Shown here: positions 5,373 to 62,413 of the stretch, piece by piece | How the letters are laid out: the number at the start of each line of letters is the position of its first letter | Position numbering within the stretch: the first letter of the stretch is position 1 | From: Intestinimonas timonensis | Lineage (GTDB): Bacteria; Bacillota; Clostridia; Oscillospirales; Oscillospiraceae | Length of the DNA stretch: 64,000 nucleotides | Direction: 5' to 3' | Assembly (NCBI RefSeq): GCF_900626145.1 | Contig: NZ_LR130817.1 | Location: forward strand, 1,480,382 to 1,544,381 | Program-made: the position numbers and the translations under genes | Notes under the pieces: model-generated | What the model was told of the DNA's origin: nothing | The model's database searches: none | The model's input: only the letters and a program-made list of their open reading frames with translations

Positions 5373-6764
5373 TTATTCTTGATCTGATTTTTGCTCTTCC
5401 TGCTTTTCCTTGATGACAGGGAACGGTTTCCCCTCCGGGGTCCGCTCCTCCGGCGGAAGATCCCGCTCCATGGGAGACGGCTTGTCCGCTTCAAAGACCT
5501 CAAAGAGATTCCTCGGCGTGAGATCAGGCTTCCGGTGCTGGAAGATGGCTGTGACCGTTGGGAAGAGAACAATGGCAATGAGTCCGCCGGAGAAACCGTT
5601 GTTGTAGAGGTTGACGCCCGCCAGCACATAGCCGGCCTGGAGGACCACCGCCGAGTGGAGAAAGCCCGCCAGGACACCCACGGGCCAACCGAATACGCCG
5701 GCGAAGGGAGCCAGCGTGGTGCCGAAGAGGGCGGCCAGCTGGAGGCCGGGCGTCTCTACGTTGTAGTGCATGAAGATGCCTCCCAGCAGGACGCCGCACA
5801 TGATGGGCAGGATGTTCCGTGCGTGCTTGCCGTAGGCGGAGAAGCCAATGATGGTGAGGATGCCCCCCAGGGTGGGCCCGTTGAGGTCACCGCCCACCAG
5901 CAGGATGTACCCGGTGGCCAGGAGTCCGTTGACCCCCATATTGATGAGCACAGGACCTCCACCCACCGTCAGCAGGAAATCACTGGGAGCCCGTCCCGTG
6001 CTGGTGAGAATACGCCGGTAGCCCGCCCAGGTGGCCCAGGCCGGGTGGCCGGAGAAAAAGAGACCGCTCACGATAAAGACCAGACACATGAGGGTTATGG
6101 CCACGCCGAAGGGCAGATTATACCCCTCCGCCCAGTAAAGGACGCTGCTGGGCGCGTCCCCTACAGCGGTGAGGATGGGCACCAGCATCATGGCCAGCAA
6201 TCCGCAGGCAAAGCCCATGTTGTAGAGGTTCATGCCGTTCTGCACCTTGTAGGTATAGGCTGACAGGGAGGGGAGCACCATGCCGATGAAGACGCCGGTA
6301 AGGATCCCCCCCAGCGGATGGGCATAGAGACTGCCCAGACCCATGTAGCTCACCAACGGAGAAAGGGCTGTGGCCAGCAGGGCCACCGAGGTATACTTGG
6401 AAAAGGGCTCCTTCTGGATGCGGGCATAGATCCAGGTGCCCAGGATGATGGGCCAGATGTTGACAATGTTCTTGCCAAAGAGGGCAAAGCCCGACATGAG
6501 CCCCATCTCCGTGATGGTGAAGCCGTTGAGAGGGCACCGGGCTAGAAAGAGGATGGCGGCGCTGATGAGGGTCACCAGGGCGGAGTTGACGAAGGCCGCC
6601 CCCGGCCCGGCGATGGCAACATAGTCGGTGATGAGCACATCCTGGGTGTTGATGATCTTCCACAGGCCCGGGAGAATGTTGGACGGGTCATCGAAGATGA
6701 GTCCCGCCAGCATCAGGGCCAGTACATACGCCAGGATCACAAAATACATGCGTTTGTATCGCAT
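5373..6764 (-). CDS. DUF1576 polytopic membrane protein
   Basis: A 463-residue integral membrane protein recognised as the DUF1576 family, which has no established function. Many hydrophobic segments run from residue 8 to about 400, interspersed with Gly-rich stretches (TVGGGPVLINMGVNGLLAT). A polar cytoplasmic tail rich in Pro, Glu and Lys follows. The start ATG has a GGGAGGG ribosome site. The topology resembles a transporter or permease half, but no substrate motif is visible. It lies downstream of ribF on the same strand with a 35-bp gap, so it may be read through from the translation operon. Confidence 0.8.
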   Translation of the reverse strand: MRYKRMYFVILAYVLALMLAGLIFDDPSNILPGLWKIINTQDVLITDYVAIAGPGAAFVNSALVTLISAAILFLARCPLNGFTITEMGLMSGFALFGKNIVNIWPIILGTWIYARIQKEPFSKYTSVALLATALSPLVSYMGLGSLYAHPLGGILTGVFIGMVLPSLSAYTYKVQNGMNLYNMGFACGLLAMMLVPILTAVGDAPSSVLYWAEGYNLPFGVAITLMCLVFIVSGLFFSGHPAWATWAGYRRILTSTGRAPSDFLLTVGGGPVLINMGVNGLLATGYILLVGGDLNGPTLGGILTIIGFSAYGKHARNILPIMCGVLLGGIFMHYNVETPGLQLAALFGTTLAPFAGVFGWPVGVLAGFLHSAVVLQAGYVLAGVNLYNNGFSGGLIAIVLFPTVTAIFQHRKPDLTPRNLFEVFEADKPSPMERDLPPEERTPEGKPFPVIKEKQEEQKSDQE

Positions 6765-7727: not shown

Positions 7728-8606
7728 TCACACCGGGAAAAAGCTTTTCACTGTGATGAGCTTGCCCCGCTCCGCCCGGCACAGGGCCAGGAAGGTCTGG
7801 TCACTGCCGTAGACCCGGTACTCTCCTTCCGGTAGGGCAGGCATCACCAGGGTCATGCCGTTGCGGAGCTTTTTCTCCGCCTCCGGCTTCAGGATCAGGT
7901 CAGGGCGGCCGGCAAAGTAGGCGTCCACCGGCAGCAGCAGGCTCTCGGCCTCTCCACGGTCGGCGGCGGCCTGGACCGCCTCCAGTGTCACCGCGTCATC
8001 CAGCGTAAAGCCGGCGGCCATGGTCCGGCGCAGAGCGCCCATGCAGCCGCCGCAGCCCAAAGCCTCACCAATATCGTGGCACAGGGTACGGACGTAGGTC
8101 CCCTTGGAGCAGCGGACCCGCAGGCGGTAGTCCGCCGGTCCGGTTGACTCCAACAGCTCCAGCTCATGGATGCAGACCGGACGTGCTTTCCGCTCTACCT
8201 CCTTGCCCTTCCGGGCCAGCTCGTAGAGCTTCTTGCCGTCTATTTTGATGGCGGAGTACATGGGAGGGATCTGGAGAATGTCGCCCCGGAACCGGTCCAG
8301 TACCGCCAGAACCTGGTCCCGGCCCACCGTCACCGGACGCTCTTCCACCACCTCACCGGTGGTATCCTGGGTATTTGTGATGACGCCTAGTTTAAGTTCT
8401 GCAATATATTCCTTTTCGGATTCAGAGGCAAACTCCACCGCCCGGGTGGCCCGGCCGATGAACACAGGCAGTACGCCGGTGGCCATAGGGTCCAGGGTAC
8501 CGGCGTGACCCACCCGCTTCTCGTGGAAGATGCCACGCACCTTGGCGCACACATCCATACTCGTCCAATCAGCGGACTTGTCTATGACGAGAATTCCGTT
8601 AGGCAT
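7728..8606 (-). CDS. truB: tRNA pseudouridine(55) synthase
   Basis: Isomerises U55 of tRNA to pseudouridine. The start at 8606 (protein begins MPNGILVIDKSADWTS) was chosen over the longer open frame because family homology begins there. This gives 292 residues with the catalytic aspartate at residue 39 in GHAGTLDPMATGVLP. Other family motifs are IPPMYSAIKIDGKKLYELAR and VRCSKGTYVRTLCHDIG. The start overlaps the nrnA stop by 8 bp, which indicates translational coupling. A small C-terminal PUA-like extension covers about residues 235-292. Confidence 0.94.
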   Translation of the reverse strand: MPNGILVIDKSADWTSMDVCAKVRGIFHEKRVGHAGTLDPMATGVLPVFIGRATRAVEFASESEKEYIAELKLGVITNTQDTTGEVVEERPVTVGRDQVLAVLDRFRGDILQIPPMYSAIKIDGKKLYELARKGKEVERKARPVCIHELELLESTGPADYRLRVRCSKGTYVRTLCHDIGEALGCGGCMGALRRTMAAGFTLDDAVTLEAVQAAADRGEAESLLLPVDAYFAGRPDLILKPEAEKKLRNGMTLVMPALPEGEYRVYGSDQTFLALCRAERGKLITVKSFFPV

Positions 8607-9992: not shown

Positions 9993-10162
9993 TCAGACCT
10001 CGATCTGCTCCATCTCGTCGTCGCAAACTCCACACCGCTCCGTCCGGCTCCCGCCGGACATCCGCTCCGTTTCGTTGCTCCTCCTCTCCACACCGGACCC
10101 GCTTCGCTGGGCTCCGGTATGGTTTGGACGCCGGTGGAGAATCACACCTCAATCTGCTCCAT
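9993..10162 (-). repeat. infB 3'-end duplication flanking a hairpin-rich insert
   Basis: The last six codons and stop of infB (10142-10162, encoding MEQIEV) recur at 9993-10013 with 19 of 21 bases identical. Both differences are synonymous (Ile and Val third positions). Similarity ends exactly at the stop codon. The 128-bp insert between the copies has a 7-bp stem around GTCCGGC/GCCGGAC, a second hairpin near 10093-10120, and an internally repeated GGTGTGGAG on the minus strand. The insert has no homology to infB or rbfA. A 79-codon frame across it is not a convincing gene. Confidence 0.8.
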
Positions 10163-13680: not shown

Positions 13681-14106
13681 TCACTCCTCGATGTCCACGC
13701 TCTCCTCGGGCTCCTCTTCGATCTCCACCTCGGCGTCCTCTACCGTGGGCAGCTCGCCCGGGTCGGACTCCGGCTTAATGTCGATCTTGTAGCCCGTCAG
13801 CTTGGCCGCCAGACGGGCGTTCTGGCCACCCCCACAAAAGGCAGCGCCTTTTGCGGGGACCCCGGTCTCCACTTGATTTGGGCGGAGTGAATCCGCCCAA
13901 ACCCAAGCTTTGCCCAAGGGCAAAGGCTTGACGCGGCAGACGCCGCGGACAGGAGGGCCTTACTCCTCGATGTCCACGCTCTCCTCGGGCTCCTCTTCGA
14001 TCTCCACTTCGGCGTCCTCCACCGTGGGCAGCTCGCCCGGGTCGGACTCCGGCTTGATGTCGATCTTGTAGCCCGTCAACTTGGCCGCCAGACGGGCGTT
14101 CTGGCC
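13681..14106 (-). repeat. nusA 3'-end duplication flanking a multi-hairpin insert
   Basis: The last 48 codons plus stop of nusA (13960-14106, 147 bp) are repeated at 13681-13827. The encoded residues are identical. There are four synonymous substitutions and a TAA/TGA stop swap. Between the copies lies a 132-bp insert made almost entirely of inverted repeats: arms CGCGGC/GCCGCG, TTTGCCC/GGGCAAA, TTTGGGCGGA/TCCGCCCAAA (loop TTCAC), and CCCC-AAAAGGC/GCCTTTT-GGGG. An 80-codon frame spans part of the insert and the second copy, but nothing suggests it is an independent gene. Confidence 0.92.
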
Positions 14107-15129
14107 CTCTTTGCCGATGGCCAGGGAGAGCTGGTCGTCGGGCACCAGCACCCGGCAGCTCTTGCCGTCGGGCAGCAGGTCCACGCTGACCACGTCGGCG
14201 GGAGAGAGGGCCGCCGCCACATAGGCGGTGGGGTCCTCACTGTACTTGATGATGTCCACCTTTTCACCGTGGAGCTCCTCCACGATGTTGTTGACCCGCT
14301 GGCCGCCGGGGCCCACGCAGGCGCCGATGGGGTCCACGTTCTCGTCGGCGGACCAGACGGCGATCTTAGTGCGGCTGCCCGCCTCACGGGCGATGGACTT
14401 GACCTCCACGGTGCCGTCGTAGATCTCGGGGATCTCCAGCTCAAAGAGACGCTTGACCAGACCGGGATGGGTGCGTGAGATGAGGACCTGGGGCCCTCTG
14501 GTGGAGCGGCGGACCTCCACCACGTAGACCTTCAGCCGGTCGCCCTCATGGATCTCCTCCCCGCGGACCTGCTCGCCGGGGGCCAGGAAAGCCTCGGTGT
14601 ACTCGCTGCTGGAGCTGATACGCAGGTTGGCAGCGCCGCTGCGGGGGTCGATGCGGGTGACGATACCGGTGAGGATCTCGTGCTCCTTGGAACTGAACTC
14701 ATCATAGATCATGCCCCGCTCGGCCTCCCGGATACCCTGGATAATGACCTGGCGGGCGGTCTGGGCGGCAATGCGGCCAAAGTTCTTGGGCTTGACCTCG
14801 ATGCGGACCACATCCCCCAGCTCGGCGTGGGGGATGGCCCGGCGGGCCTCCTCCAGAGACATCTCGGTAGCCGGGTTGTCCACGGTCTCCACGATGTCCT
14901 TGAGGATGAACATGCGCACCTGGCCGGTCTCGGGGTTGGCCTTGACCTCAATGTTGTCCCCGGCGCCCTCGTGGTCCCGCTTGTAGGCGGAGGCCAGGGC
15001 CTGGGTGATCTTCTCCATCATATAGCCGGCGGGAATGCCCTTTTCCTTCTCGATCTGGGCAATGGCGGCGAAAAACTCCTGGCCGTCGTTCTCGCTGCTG
15101 TTGGTCTTTTTCGCGTTCTTTCTCGGCAT
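13960..15129 (-). CDS. nusA: Transcription termination/antitermination factor NusA
   Basis: RNA polymerase-associated factor controlling pausing, termination and antitermination. The 389-residue protein contains the N-terminal RNAP-binding domain (about 1-130) and an S1 domain (about 135-205, [21 protein letters not shown]). Two KH domains follow ([15 protein letters not shown] and [16 protein letters not shown]), then an acidic tail rich in Glu. It follows rimP with a 14-bp gap. Its terminal 147 bp are duplicated downstream of its stop codon, so the native gene is intact while a second 3' end is left behind. Confidence 0.97.
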
Positions 15130-24392: not shown

Positions 24393-25751
24393 ATGCTCAA
24401 CAGCAAAGAGATCCTGGATACCATCAATATGATCGACCAGCAGCACCTGGACATCCGCACCATTACCATGGGCATCTCCCTGCTGGACTGCGCAGATCCC
24501 GACGCCGAGGCCGCCTGCCGCAAGATCTACGACAAGATCTGCCGCCGGGCGGAAAAGCTGGTCTTTACCGGCGAGTCCATTGAGCGGGAGTTTGGCATTC
24601 CCATCGTCAATAAGCGCATCTCCGTTACCCCCATCGCCCTGGTGGCGGGCGCCTCTGTGACCAACGACTACGTCCCCTTTGCCGTGGCCCTGGACAAGGC
24701 GGCCAAGAACACCGGCGTCAACTTTATCGGCGGCTTCTCTGCCCTGGTGCAGAAGGGTTTTGCCGCCGGCGACCGCAAGCTCATCGAGGCCATCCCAGAA
24801 GCCCTGGCCACCACTGATCTGGTGTGCTCCTCGGTGAACGTGGGCTCCACCAAGGCCGGCATCAATATGGACGCCGTGGCTCTCATGGGCCGGACCATCA
24901 AGGCCGCCGCCGAGCGCACCGCCGACTGGGGCGGCTTCGGCTGCGCCAAGCTGGTGGTCTTCTGCAACGCCGTGGAGGACAACCCCTTCATGGCCGGCGC
25001 CTTCCACGGCGTGGGCGAGGGAGACTGCGTCATCAACGTGGGCGTCTCCGGTCCCGGCGTAGTGCACCACGCTCTGGAGAAGGTCAAGGGCCAACCCTTT
25101 GATATGGTGGCTGAGACCATCAAAAAGACCGCCTTCCGCATCACCCGCATGGGCCAGTTGGTGGCTCAGGAGGCCTCCCGCCGCCTGGATGTGCCCTTCG
25201 GCATCGTGGACCTCTCCCTGGCCCCCACTCCCGCCATCGGCGACTCGGTGGCCCGCATTCTGGAGGAGATGGGCCTGGAGGTCTGCGGCACCCACGGCAC
25301 CACCGCCGCCCTGGCCCTCCTCAACGACGCCGTCAAGAAGGGCGGCGTCATGGCCTCCTCCCACGTGGGCGGCCTGTCCGGCGCCTTTATCCCCGTCTCT
25401 GAGGACGAGGGCATGATCGCGGCCGCCGCCTCCGGCGCCCTCCACCTGGACAAGCTGGAGGCCATGACCTGCGTGTGCTCCGTGGGCCTGGACATGATCG
25501 CCGTCCCCGGCGACACCACTGCCGAGACCATCTCCGCCATCATTGCCGACGAGGCGGCCATCGGCATGGTCAACTCCAAGACCACCGCCGTGCGTATCAT
25601 CCCCGCCCCCGGCAAGACCGTGGGGGACACGGTGGAGTTCGGTGGGCTGCTGGGCTCCGCCCCCGTCATGCCCGTTCACCCCTTCTGCAGCGCCGAATTT
25701 ATCCAGCGCGGCGGCCGCATTCCTGCCCCCATGCAGAGCCTGAAAAACTGA
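24393..25751 (+). CDS. UPF0210 / PFL-fold family protein
   Basis: A 452-residue cytoplasmic protein of the UPF0210 (DUF711) family, structurally related to pyruvate formate-lyase but without demonstrated activity. Hallmarks are [12 protein letters not shown] near residue 27, [13 protein letters not shown] near 75, [13 protein letters not shown] near 115 and [19 protein letters not shown] near 270. It begins after a GGAGGTG ribosome site, 15 bp after the ACT gene. The last 12 codons and stop are repeated downstream around a hairpin-rich insert (next entry), so the gene itself is intact. Confidence 0.9.
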
Positions 25752-25949
25752 GCGGGCGGCCGCCACGACGGGCCCCATCGCAGATGGGGCGCGCCCTCAG
25801 GCGCGTACAAGCGTCTTGCGCAGCAAGACCTTGGCGCAGGCGGAATTCACTTCCGCCGAGCATGTGAAATCATCTTCGGGTCCCCACGGGGACCTGTCCC
25901 CGTGGGCCGGCCGCATCCCCGCCCCCATGCAGAGCCTGAAAAACTGAGC
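25713..25949 (+). repeat. UPF0210-gene 3'-end duplication flanking a multi-hairpin insert
   Basis: A 41-bp segment covering the last 12 codons, the stop and two following bases (25713-25753) recurs at 25909-25949 with 39 of 41 identical. Both differences are synonymous (Ile ATT/ATC, Pro CCT/CCC). The 155-bp insert holds at least four hairpins in series: GCCCCATC/GATGGGGC, GTCTTGC/GCAAGAC, GGCGGAA/TTCCGCC with loop TTCAC, and GGTCCCC/GGGGACC. The GGCGGA-TTCAC-TCCGCC hairpin, its preceding CTTGG and the following AAATCA are shared with the nusA insert, so the two belong to one family. Confidence 0.9.
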
Positions 25950-28844: not shown

Positions 28845-30170
28845 ATGCTGAAACTTGACCTTTCCAACGCAAGTTCCTTCCTGTCCCAGGACTACCTCTC
28901 CAGCCGCATGGAGGCCCTGGAACAGGCCCGTGTCATGCTGGCCGAGCACAATGGCCCCGGCGGTGACTTCACCGGCTGGGTCCGCCTGCCCGTGGAGTAC
29001 GACAAGGAGGAGTTCGCCCGCATCCAGGCCGCCGCCAAGAAGATCCGCTCTGACTCCGACGTGCTGGTGGTCATCGGCATCGGCGGCTCCTATCTGGGCG
29101 CCCGAGCCGTCATCGAGCTACTGGGCTCCGCCGACCACAAGCTTGCTCCCAATAAGCCTGAGATTTTCTTCGCAGGCAATGGCCTGTCCACCGACGCCAT
29201 GGGTGACCTCATCGACTATCTGGAGGGCAAGGACTGGTCCATCAACATCATCTCCAAGTCCGGTACCACCACCGAGCCTGCCGTGGCCTTCCGGGTCTTC
29301 AAGGGCCTGCTGGAGGAGAAGTACGGCAAGGAGGAGGCACGGAAGCGGATCTACGCCACCACCGATGCCCACAAGGGTGCCCTGAAGGGCCTGGCTGACG
29401 CTGAGGGCTATGAGGAGTTCGTGGTGCCCGACGCCGTGGGCGGCCGGTACTCCGTCCTCACTGCCGTGGGGCTGCTGCCCATCGCCGTGGCCGGCGTGGA
29501 CATCGAGGCTCTGATGGCCGGCTCCGCCGAGGCCATGGACGTGCTGGCCAAGCCCGGCGCCGACAACATCGCCTGGCAGTATGCCGCCGCCCGGAACGCC
29601 CTCTATGACGCCGGCAAGTCGGTAGAGCTGCTGGTGGGCTATGAGCCCTCTTTCCGCTTCTTCGCTGAGTGGTGGAAGCAGCTTTACGGTGAGAGCGAGG
29701 GCAAGGATGGCAAGGGCCTCCTCCCCGCCAGCGTGGAGTTCACTGCCGACCTCCACTCCATGGGCCAGTACATCCAGCAGGGCCAGCGCATCCTTCTGGA
29801 GACCGTAGTGAAGTTCAGCAAGTCCCGCCGCACCATTACCATCCCCAACGACCCCGACAACGTGGACGGTCTCAACTTCCTCAGCGGCAAGCCCCTCCAG
29901 TTCGTGGCCGAGCAGGCCATGCGTGGCACCCTGCTGGCCCACGTGGACGGCGGCGTGCCCAACCTGGTGGTGGAGGCCGACGCCCGGGACGAGCGCACCG
30001 TGGGCCAGCTCATCTACTTCTTCGAGTACGCCTGCGGCCTGAGCGGCTATCTGCTGGGCGTGAACCCCTTCGACCAGCCCGGCGTGGAGGCGTACAAGAA
30101 AAATATGTTCGCCCTCCTGGGCAAGCCCGGCTATGAGGAGCAGAAGGCCGCTCTGGAGGCCAGACTGTAA
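28845..30170 (+). CDS. pgi: Glucose-6-phosphate isomerase
   Basis: Interconverts glucose-6-phosphate and fructose-6-phosphate. The 441-residue protein matches the short bacterial PGI class: [19 protein letters not shown] near residue 75, [16 protein letters not shown] near 137, the Arg-bearing [13 protein letters not shown] near 200, and [16 protein letters not shown] near 405 with the catalytic lysine. A good AGGAGG ribosome site precedes the ATG. It is monocistronic by its own promoter. Confidence 0.96.
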
Positions 30171-54863: not shown

Positions 54864-55895
<1,032 letters not shown>

Positions 55896-55896
55896 A

Positions 55897-56144
55897 GGGC
55901 TTGTTTGAAAAAAGGCGGAGATTGTGCTAAAGCAACAAAATAGCGATGGAGGCAAGATACGCTTCCCCTGCGCTGGCTGCCGCCAGCTACCCTTTTGTGG
56001 ACTTGCCATCTGGGGACATCTTGCGTTGCAAGCTGTTCCCAGCCGACAAGTTTCATAAAATATGCTATCTTTTTGATAGGCAGTGAAGTATAATGAAGAT
56101 GACAACAAATATGAATTTATTTAGAGGTGTTAGACAATGAAATT
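55897..56144 (-). mobile_element. Fragment of an IS5-like element and unassigned flank
   Basis: Bases 55897-55964 repeat, in inverted orientation, the right end of the complete IS5-like element at 56925-56992 with only a couple of differences. The remaining sequence to about 56060 has no recognisable gene. From 56060 the DNA turns AT-rich and includes a TATAAT (about 56092) and a GAGGTG ribosome site that belong to the interrupted VOC gene. Confidence 0.75.
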
Positions 56145-56145
56145 A

Positions 56146-56992
56146 GGCCTTGTTTGAAAAATAAAAGTTGCACAAGAAACCAAGTTATGCGAAGCTATGA
56201 GCATGAAACGATATGAATTAACAAAAGAACAATGGGAACGAATCAAGCCGCTGCTGCCACCGGAAGAAACGGGAAAGCGGGGTCGTCCCCGGAAGGATAA
56301 CCGGATCATGCTCAACGGAATGCTCTGGATCGTCCGGAGCGGTGCGCAGTGGCGTGAGCTGCCGGCGACCTATGGTCCTTGGCAGTCTATATACGCAAGA
56401 TTCGCCAAATGGCGGAATGAGGGCACTCTGGAAGCGGTATTCCACACACGGTCTGCGGACGCGGATATGGAGAACCTGAGCATGGACTCCACTTGCGTAA
56501 AGGTGCATGAAAGCGCAAATGGCGGGGAAAAAAACGGCGGATAAGGCGGTTGGCCGTACCAAAGGCGGGTGGAACACAAAGCTCCACGCTGTCGTAGACG
56601 GTCTGGGAAACCCGGTGGAGTTCCTTCTCTCCGCTGGAAATGACCACGATTCGGTTCACGCTGTTGAACTGCTGAAAAAGGTCAGAATCGGCGGGAGTGC
56701 CGTGCTGGCAGACCGGGCCTATGGTGCCCGGACGATTCGGGAATATATCTCAGCGCACGGGGCCAGCTATGTGATCCCGCCGCAAAGCAACGTTTCCGAT
56801 CCCTGGCCGGTTGACTGGCATCTGTATAAAGAACGCCATCTGGTGGAGTGTTTTTTCCAGAAAATCAAGTGGTTTCGCAGAATCGCCACCAGATATGACA
56901 AGTCGGATGCTTCCTTCCTAGCCTTTGTGTATCTTGCCTCCAGCGCTATTTTGTTGCTTTAGCACAATCTCCGCCTTTTTTCAAACAAGCCC
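56146..56992 (+). mobile_element. IS5-family insertion sequence (IS427-like)
   Basis: An 847-bp element with inverted ends GGCCTTGTTTGAAAAA and GGGCTTGTTTGAAAAA, flanked by TA (56144-56145 and 56993-56994). It encodes one transposase in two frames. It is inserted three codons into the VOC gene. Confidence 0.88.
56197..56962 (+). CDS. IS5-family transposase in two frames (frameshift at A7)
   Basis: The first frame (56197-56544) encodes the N-terminal DUF4096-type domain (LTKEQWERIKPLLPPE, NGMLWIVRSGAQWRELPA) and the first catalytic Asp (LSMDSTCVKVHE). The second frame (in use from about 56530) gives KKTADKAVGRTKGG, VLADRAYGARTIREY and the C-terminal HLVECFFQKIKWFRRIATRYDK with the catalytic Glu. 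The frames join at an A7 run (56528-56534), where loss of one A gives a continuous protein. This is the usual slippage device of this IS group, so the transposase is probably functional. Confidence 0.88.
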
Positions 56993-57349
56993 TAAAGAAC
57001 ATTTTTAATTGTTGTTAAAGATATTGAGAAATCAAAACGATTTTACAATGACCTGTTCGGTCTTGATTTGGTACTTGACAATGACGGTAACATGATTTTA
57101 ACGGAAGGACTTGTGCTTCAAGACGAAAAAATTTGGAAAAAGTTTTTAGGAAAGGATATTATCCCTAAAAGTAATTCTTGTGAATTATATTTTGAAGAAC
57201 AAGATATAGAAGCATTCGTTGAAAAGCTGGAACGGTCTTATCCCTCAATTCAATATGTTAATAAACTTATGACACATAGTTGGGGACAAAAAGTAATTCG
57301 TTTTTATGATTTGGACGGTAATTTGATTGAAGTAGGAACACCGATGTAA

Positions 57350-62209: not shown

Positions 62210-62413
62210 AGCGGCATGTATCCTCTGTCCTTTTGCCTGAGAGATTGACGGTATGCTTCCGCACCGTTTTGCCCCTTCGGCACCCAGTTCATGAGCTTCT
62301 CCAGAGTGACATTCACGCACAGTCCTCGTTCCTGCTGGGAACGCCTGAGAGTGTTACTCCTTCGGCAAGCCAACGGCTTTTTCCTGGGCGCTTCAACTGT
62401 CCTGTTCGATTGT
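62210..62413 (-). ncRNA. Tandem glycine riboswitch
   Basis: On the minus strand two glycine-aptamer signatures follow one another. The first is GCCGAAGGAGTAA with ACTCTCAGGCG and GAGGACTGTG. The second is TCTGGAGAAGC, GCCGAAGGGGCAAA, AATCTCTCAGGCAAAAGGACAGAGG. They match the two-aptamer glycine riboswitch consensus (GCCGAAGGNGCAA, TCTCAGG, AAAAGGACAGA). It is followed by a terminator and then the AGCS symporter start. A glycine-activated or glycine-repressed switch would tune import or export to the glycine supply. Confidence 0.93.

Follow-up and report, generated by a model that had tools for sequence, protein, structure and literature searches.

A dispersed, hairpin-rich element flanked by long direct repeats at gene ends in Intestinimonas and related bacteria

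In the window analyzed here (the whole stretch of 64,000 nucleotides from Intestinimonas timonensis contig NZ_LR130817.1, positions 1,480,382 to 1,544,381), the 3' end of nusA is present twice around an array of hairpins, and the sequence between the two copies belongs to a family whose members have very probably inserted at dispersed sites, duplicating long stretches of target. Its members are dispersed, their hairpins covary, direct repeats of variable length surround them, the same sites are single-copy elsewhere, and a short arm, x', is complementary to target sequence around the start of the repeats (about -6 to +9). The best explanation, favored with moderate confidence, is a small, non-coding, structured insertion element with a guide arm and long target duplications of variable length. 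In the orientation of the element, the order of parts is gene body A, proximal repeat copy D1, arm x', hairpins A-B-C-D, distal repeat copy D2 and downstream DNA.

The nusA locus and other sites in the window

Segments 13962-14106 and 13683-13827 are copies of each other (145 nt, 97% identical), and the intervening insert (13828-13959) consists of 132 bp of hairpins; a fold of the insert with short flanks (13810-13965) reaches -83.9 kcal/mol (z -4.95), with none of 200 shuffles as good. The duplication of the nusA 3' end around a hairpin array, described in a preliminary description of this DNA, is thus borne out. A stop codon closes both repeat copies, TAA in one and TGA in the other, and their four coding differences are all synonymous. 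The closest full-length relative of the encoded NusA is that of Candidatus Intestinimonas merdavium (98% identical). The features of this locus and of another family member found in the window are as follows; R1 is a covariance model built from 30 copies of the element, and G001 to G015 designate genomes of the genus.

13960-15129, minus strand: nusA (NCBIfam TIGR01953)
13962-14106, minus strand: D1, the proximal repeat copy and real nusA 3' end (last 48 codons), from the repeat alignment and TIGR01953
14103-14110, minus strand: x, the stretch of target at the left edge of D1 to which x' is complementary (7 pairs, score 14, alone not significant)
13952-13959, minus strand: x', the 5' arm of the element, GGCCCTCC, directly 3' of the nusA stop codon; the same 8 letters in G001, G002, G013 and G014
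13828-13951, minus strand: body of the nusA element, four hairpins (R1 match 13824-13945, 91.5 bits)
13932-13947, minus strand: hairpin A (limits by eye)
13904-13930, minus strand: hairpin B, CAAG...CTTG (limits by eye)
13877-13901, minus strand: hairpin C, loop TTCAC (limits by eye)
13830-13858, minus strand: hairpin D (limits by eye)
13681-13827, minus strand: D2, the distal repeat copy with stop TGA, followed by downstream DNA (repeat alignment)
25712-25753, plus strand: D1 of the second family member, the 3' end of ORF 24393-25751 (NF003700, hypothetical protein) plus 2 nt
25754-25907, plus strand: second element copy with its x' (score 19; R1 match 25792-25916, 100.7 bits)
25908-25949, plus strand: D2 of the second copy, 42 nt, 95% (repeat alignment)

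The same repeat-hairpin-repeat arrangement lies behind nusA in four genus genomes (G001, where the locus is truncated by a contig end, G002, G013 and G014), and the nusA tail is single in G004, G009-G012 and G015. The pairing of x with x' amounts to 7 pairs in the window and 9 in the sister species G001, G002 and G014. In G013 the second repeat can be aligned over 36 nt only, which suggests that D2 is not indispensable. Two sites that are single in the window are occupied in its relatives: the truB start (8544-8606), where G002 has an element between 63-bp repeats (100%), and the end of the glucose-6-phosphate isomerase gene (30121-30170), where G013 has one between 50-bp repeats.

Behind infB (~10014-10141, minus strand) an unlike hairpin sequence, GGAGGAGCAACGAAACGG...GGAGTTTGCGACGACG, lies between copies of the last infB codons (21 nt, 90%). 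A relative of it in L098 (~1685-1820) has a 36-bp repeat and an arm that is, by eye, complementary to its target; with three sequences in total showing the strict pattern, these hairpins may be a second family using the same trick. The window also contains two adjacent glycine riboswitch aptamers (62223-62396, minus strand) and a 66-nt inverted repeat (55895-55960 and 56929-56994, 98% complementary, 968 nt apart).

Spread and fold of the element family

The preliminary description had proposed searching for further copies of the insert, comparing empty sites in relatives and building a covariance model from all copies. With the nusA insert alone as query, matches were found in 7 of 8 genomes, at most of these loci again between direct repeats. 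R1 has matches in all 11 genus genomes (at least 1-49 copies each, E 0.01), in at least 63 of 200 genomes sampled from the taxonomic family (up to 17 candidates scored per genome) and in at least 4 of 391 drawn from the class (up to 8 candidates scored per genome), three of these four being already among the family-level matches. One occurrence, in Vescimonas fastidiosa (NZ_AP023416.1), has a 63-bp repeat (97%) that ends at the truB start codon.

The element is ~120-150 bp long and non-coding. In an alignment fitted to the model, 99.1% of cells are paired, 12 of 15 pairs show two-sided changes and none of 500 shuffles is as good; covariation is seen in helix B, helix C and part of helix D, with 182 two-sided changed cells versus 47 in shuffles of the same model-fitted alignment. 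Pairs in hairpin C comprise 995 Watson-Crick, 11 G-T and 2 other; G-T accounts for 11 of 13 pairing faults in hairpin C, 69 of 119 in hairpin D and 5 of 10 in hairpin B. Because the faults of hairpin C are mostly G-T, the evidence leans towards RNA as the element strand, with the faults of hairpin B evenly split (5/5). Rfam covariance models gave no relevant match in the window and six further loci, and a known structured RNA family is accordingly rejected.

The two marks of a dispersed mobile element, numerous sites and undivided counterparts, were both found by comparison between species. Among 134 copies there are 110 dissimilar junction sequences (the same gene in diverged species being counted repeatedly), and undivided single-copy sites occur in sister species that lack the element, for example at uvrB, the truB start and the glucose-6-phosphate isomerase end. 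In G003, G009, G011, G014 and G015 the uvrB tail is repeated; it is single in G001, G002, G010, G012 and G013, where the search extended over more than 1.1 kb downstream. The insertion sites show a weak G at -2 and nothing further, so that motif-driven targeting is rejected. Elements are no assembly artefact, being present in G009, which is assembled as a single 3.22-Mb contig, and in the V. fastidiosa record. Seen from one locus alone, the arrangement could be taken for an assembly error or for a simple tandem duplication flanking a normal terminator; this reading is rejected as highly improbable in the face of hundreds of related inserts, the undivided sites and the annotated isolate record. 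Ordinary intergenic DNA and an insert with no other copies, the picture that the preliminary description had set against its own reading, is therefore not what the comparison revealed.

Autonomous versions carrying open reading frames, sought through long-range repeats around copies that have no short repeats, were not found, and viral, phage and plasmid records hold few element matches. One repeat-less member occurs in common flanking sequence in a 3.2-Mb contig and a viral contig (L289, ~5549-5676; L381, ~6327-6354); this common flank indicates that prophages may carry copies.

Direct repeats, the target-complementary arm and the distal copy

Flanking direct repeats were found in 125 of 148 copies of a first set and in 42 of 59 of a second, which includes nine re-fetched copies without repeats. 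When the sets are merged, joining the re-fetched copies and two identical tandem units, 165 of 196 distinct copies have repeats, and 161 of the 196 have them at ≥25 bp with E<1e-6, compared with 2 of 400 random positions. Repeat lengths are continuous (156 of 165 within 30-154 bp, median 75) and, to our knowledge, vary far more than in any known transposition. In 22 of 125 copies the repeat extends into an element, forming tandem units.

Stop positions were assigned for 133 copies that have sufficient flank and whose repeats do not reach into the element. In 94 of them the stop codon of the gene lies in D1 or within 20 nt of it; another 20 were classed as antisense and have a start codon in D1 (some, e.g. 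uvrB, are actually sense), 16 fit neither pattern and 3 have no open frame. The predominance of stops in or near D1 implies that the copy joined to the gene body usually completes the gene. The peptides at gene-start insertions resemble RpiB, TruB, PrfC and carbamate kinase (names by eye). The preliminary description had the duplication ending exactly at the stop codon, which holds at nusA and fails as a rule for the family: in 30 sense copies with repeats ≥97% identical, the ends range from 56 nt beyond the stop to 10 nt short of it. An exact end is found in only 2 of these 30, which rejects it as a design rule, and in 7 of 26 repeats with <92% identity, a rise expected if non-coding flanks diverge faster. 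Its picture of an element that enters downstream of a gene and brings along or generates a new 3' end agrees with the many relatives, duplicated gene ends and undivided sites, and must be widened to gene starts such as truB; the new end is more likely generated by the long target duplication than brought along.

The arm x', a feature new relative to the preliminary description, is a stretch of ~12-14 nt before the first hairpin that is complementary to sequence around the start of D1. A score of ≥18 within 20 nt of the D1 start is reached in 74 of 103 non-tandem copies, compared with 4.5 expected from cross-pairing, and a score of ≥16 in 82 of 103, compared with 11 expected; 73 of these 82 pairings span the junction, mostly from about -6 to +9. 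In a wider pooled set the pairing spans the junction in 90 of 136 copies, with a mean length of 12-14 nt. At the stricter score, 29 of 103 copies lack x', the nusA copy of the window among them.

For copies at one site with unlike bodies (identity <75%; 62 pairs), x' fits the x of its own species in 139 comparisons, that of the other in 40 and neither in 21; for orthologous copies (identity ≥82%; 40 pairs), changes in x are mostly unmatched in x' (20 own, 17 other, 7 neither). All within-site pairs pooled give 212 own, 92 other and 62 neither, pairs within one site not being independent in any of these counts. In orthologous copies x' is 95% identical and the spacer ahead of it 75% (19 pairs, both members of each being preselected for x'; the spacer has ≥2 bases in 10 pairs), and mean mismatches between x and x' do not rise with repeat divergence (0.58, 0.66, 0.62). 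The arm thus seems to be a working part that is set to the target at insertion and largely conserved afterwards, and its pairing is probably, with good confidence, part of how the element works.

The strongest rival for the chemistry of insertion is replication strand switching, in which a nascent strand stalled at the end of D1 switches to the opposite template, copies the short inverted x', captures the hairpin sequence and then resumes at the beginning of D. The product (duplicate, inverted piece, insert, duplicate) would be like the small inverted triplications of yeast, and a duplicate/inverted/duplicate of similar size (148/160/148 bp) is reported to be eliminated by polymerase slippage in E. 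coli (PMC13334657). The fit of x' to its own locus, sites with no motif beyond the weak G at -2, and the tandem units (repeats reaching into an element in 22 of 125 copies) all agree with strand switching. However, a mutational accident is unlikely to use one conserved structured sequence throughout, and x' is kept despite decay of the spacer, with no extra mismatches where the repeats are old; strand switching is therefore considered unlikely, though less so than the other replacements for insertion.

D2 behaves as coding sequence. Since D1 ends the gene, D2 is expected to decay, and mostly it does not. Differences between D1 and D2 at 68 sense loci total S=202 and N=65, a ratio of 0.32 compared with 2.9 at random and ~1.45 for a free D2 by our own estimate, in a count where choosing the longest open frame gave some loci a wrong label (L197 and L200, at least, are sense). 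The D2 of 97 copies is free of in-frame stops, with gapped codons in 3. Between species (18 pairs) the D2-D2 changes (S=123, N=68) resemble in pattern those of D1-D1 (S=128, N=52) and of the gene body (S=229, N=151). With the first one to three residues left aside, D1 and D2 encode the same peptide in 3 of 5 uvrB carriers, both infB carriers and 5 of 5 carriers at a third gene; at a fourth gene they do so in none of 4, one to three residues differing. In gene-start copies the constraint is weaker (S=18, N=8 in 13 loci; this count and that of stop positions use coding bias or exclude sense-readable loci, the latter count still filing some uvrB copies as antisense), and in one of them, L096, the D2 start codon is lost. 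As a separate observation, in uvrB, infB and two further genes (up to 10 genus genomes) the last 19-28 codons have higher synonymous divergence than the preceding 100, the tail/body value being 2.33 in carriers and 1.43 in non-carriers.

A coding D2 can be read in either of two ways: the product of A joined to D2 is really made, by excision, or gain and loss together with recombination keep renewing D2. In the first reading D1, x' and the element are removed from the mRNA as an intron would be, with x' as the splint that brings A and D2 into line, and both D1 and D2 serve as protein ends. This would explain why x' pairs from about -6 to +9, i.e. with both would-be exons, and why D2 is constrained, and it suits the G-T faults of the hairpins (11 of 13 in C; 69 of 119 in D, 5 of 10 in B). 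Against it, the gene is in most cases already complete with D1 (a stop in 94 of 133 copies, a start codon in 20 more), which would be needless if excision were efficient; gene-start copies, antisense to the gene, also tend towards a coding D2 (S=18, N=8); and Rfam gave no relevant match. Excision of this kind appears quite improbable. In the second reading, which adds to the insertion model rather than replacing it, the element is repeatedly gained and lost by recombination with element-free relatives, and undivided alleles refresh D2. Undivided sites in sister species and the D2 constraint in both orientations agree with this, as do the nusA carriers, where lineage-specific changes are common to both repeat copies and, in the pairs compared, copies are mostly more similar within a genome (94-99% identity) than from one genome to another (83-97%). 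Certain D1-D2 pairs, however, carry numerous synonymous differences, e.g. 16 in 28 codons for uvrB in G003; in our judgement this exceeds within-species diversity, and recurrent gain and loss is rated as possible but rather doubtful.

A model of insertion and its relation to known systems

In the favored insertion model, the folded element strand (RNA or single-stranded DNA) would dock via x' on a target strand, the junction A|D would be opened at the docking point and the other strand 30-150 nt further on, and gap filling would then yield D1 and D2; these docking steps are proposed tentatively. Insertions would survive where the end of the gene falls within D1, and the chemistry would be supplied by an enzyme in trans or by host replication and repair. 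Several observations count against insertion: searches for a partner enzyme found none, repeat lengths spread more widely than in known transposition, 31 of 196 copies have no repeat, 29 of 103 have no strict x', changes in orthologous x are mostly unmatched in x', and D2 is constrained although D1 ends the gene, which plain insertion does not predict.

No candidate partner enzyme tracks the element across the 11 genus genomes, and a retroelement, TnpB and a Y1 transposase are rejected in that role. Reverse transcriptase (RVT_1) was found in 3 of 11 genomes and not in G013 or G014, the richest in copies; the TnpB-type zinc finger PF07282 in 3 of 11, above the cut-off in 2; and the Y1 transposase domain in 4 of 11, compared with 11 of 11 for the element (the assemblies searched for RVT_1 and Y1 being possibly incomplete). 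Homing-nuclease logic is rejected by reasoning, as the paired site A|D1 is intact in the carrier allele.

A more speculative reading is that the mobile element is self-addressing: a very small folded molecule, RNA or single-stranded DNA, would pair with its target through an arm that becomes the complement of each new site, and would insert there with a long duplication that rebuilds the gene end, making it harmless in compact genomes. If mobile insertion is correct, it would let mobile DNA enter core genes (nusA, infB, uvrB) and leave them unbroken, each site being matched by its own address arm. Enzyme-driven chemistry could represent a new programmable insertion system, and replication-driven chemistry would amount to repeated evidence from nature that strands switch in bacteria. 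That both repeat copies are constrained raises the question of which gene end is used.

MITE-like sequences and REP/BIME palindromes are likewise small, non-coding, hairpin-rich, dispersed and near genes. They have a short fixed target duplication or none, whereas the present element has variable repeats, mostly 30-154 bp, and a target-complementary arm; a fixed short duplication is absent (156 of 165 repeats at 30-154 bp), and inspection of the alignment by eye showed no terminal inverted repeats. Integrative elements that occupy the 3' ends of genes, and whose attL and attR restore the gene, also leave a duplicated gene end and a whole gene, but unlike them the hairpin element has no cargo genes, occupies many different sites and varies in repeat length. 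The guide RNAs of IscB and TnpB have a structured body and a variable arm that pairs with DNA, and resemble the element in its RNA-like body and variable pairing arm; after insertion of the hairpin element, however, the paired site is intact, and PF07282 is present in 3 of 11 genomes. In group I and II introns and IStrons, the internal guide sequence spans both sides of the junction, as x' does, and the gene remains usable after insertion; the hairpin element differs in being much smaller, in having no Rfam match and in that D1 is usually already the gene end, with RVT_1 in 3 of 11 genomes. In yeast rad27 mutants and cancer genomes, small inverted triplications (duplicate, inverted, duplicate, with repeats near 150 bp that are lost by slippage) are alike in geometry and repeat size; their inverted piece is ~160 bp rather than ~12-14 nt, and they are not reported to contain a conserved insert (PMC13334657). 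Here that geometry is matched in part, by the short x', a conserved, unrelated body lying in between. A search of titles and abstract openings in the open-licence PMC literature returned no description of the hairpin element. Although MITE-like in size and dispersal, the element combines a structured body, a self-matching arm and long duplications that rebuild gene ends, a set of features for which no counterpart was found among known mobile elements.
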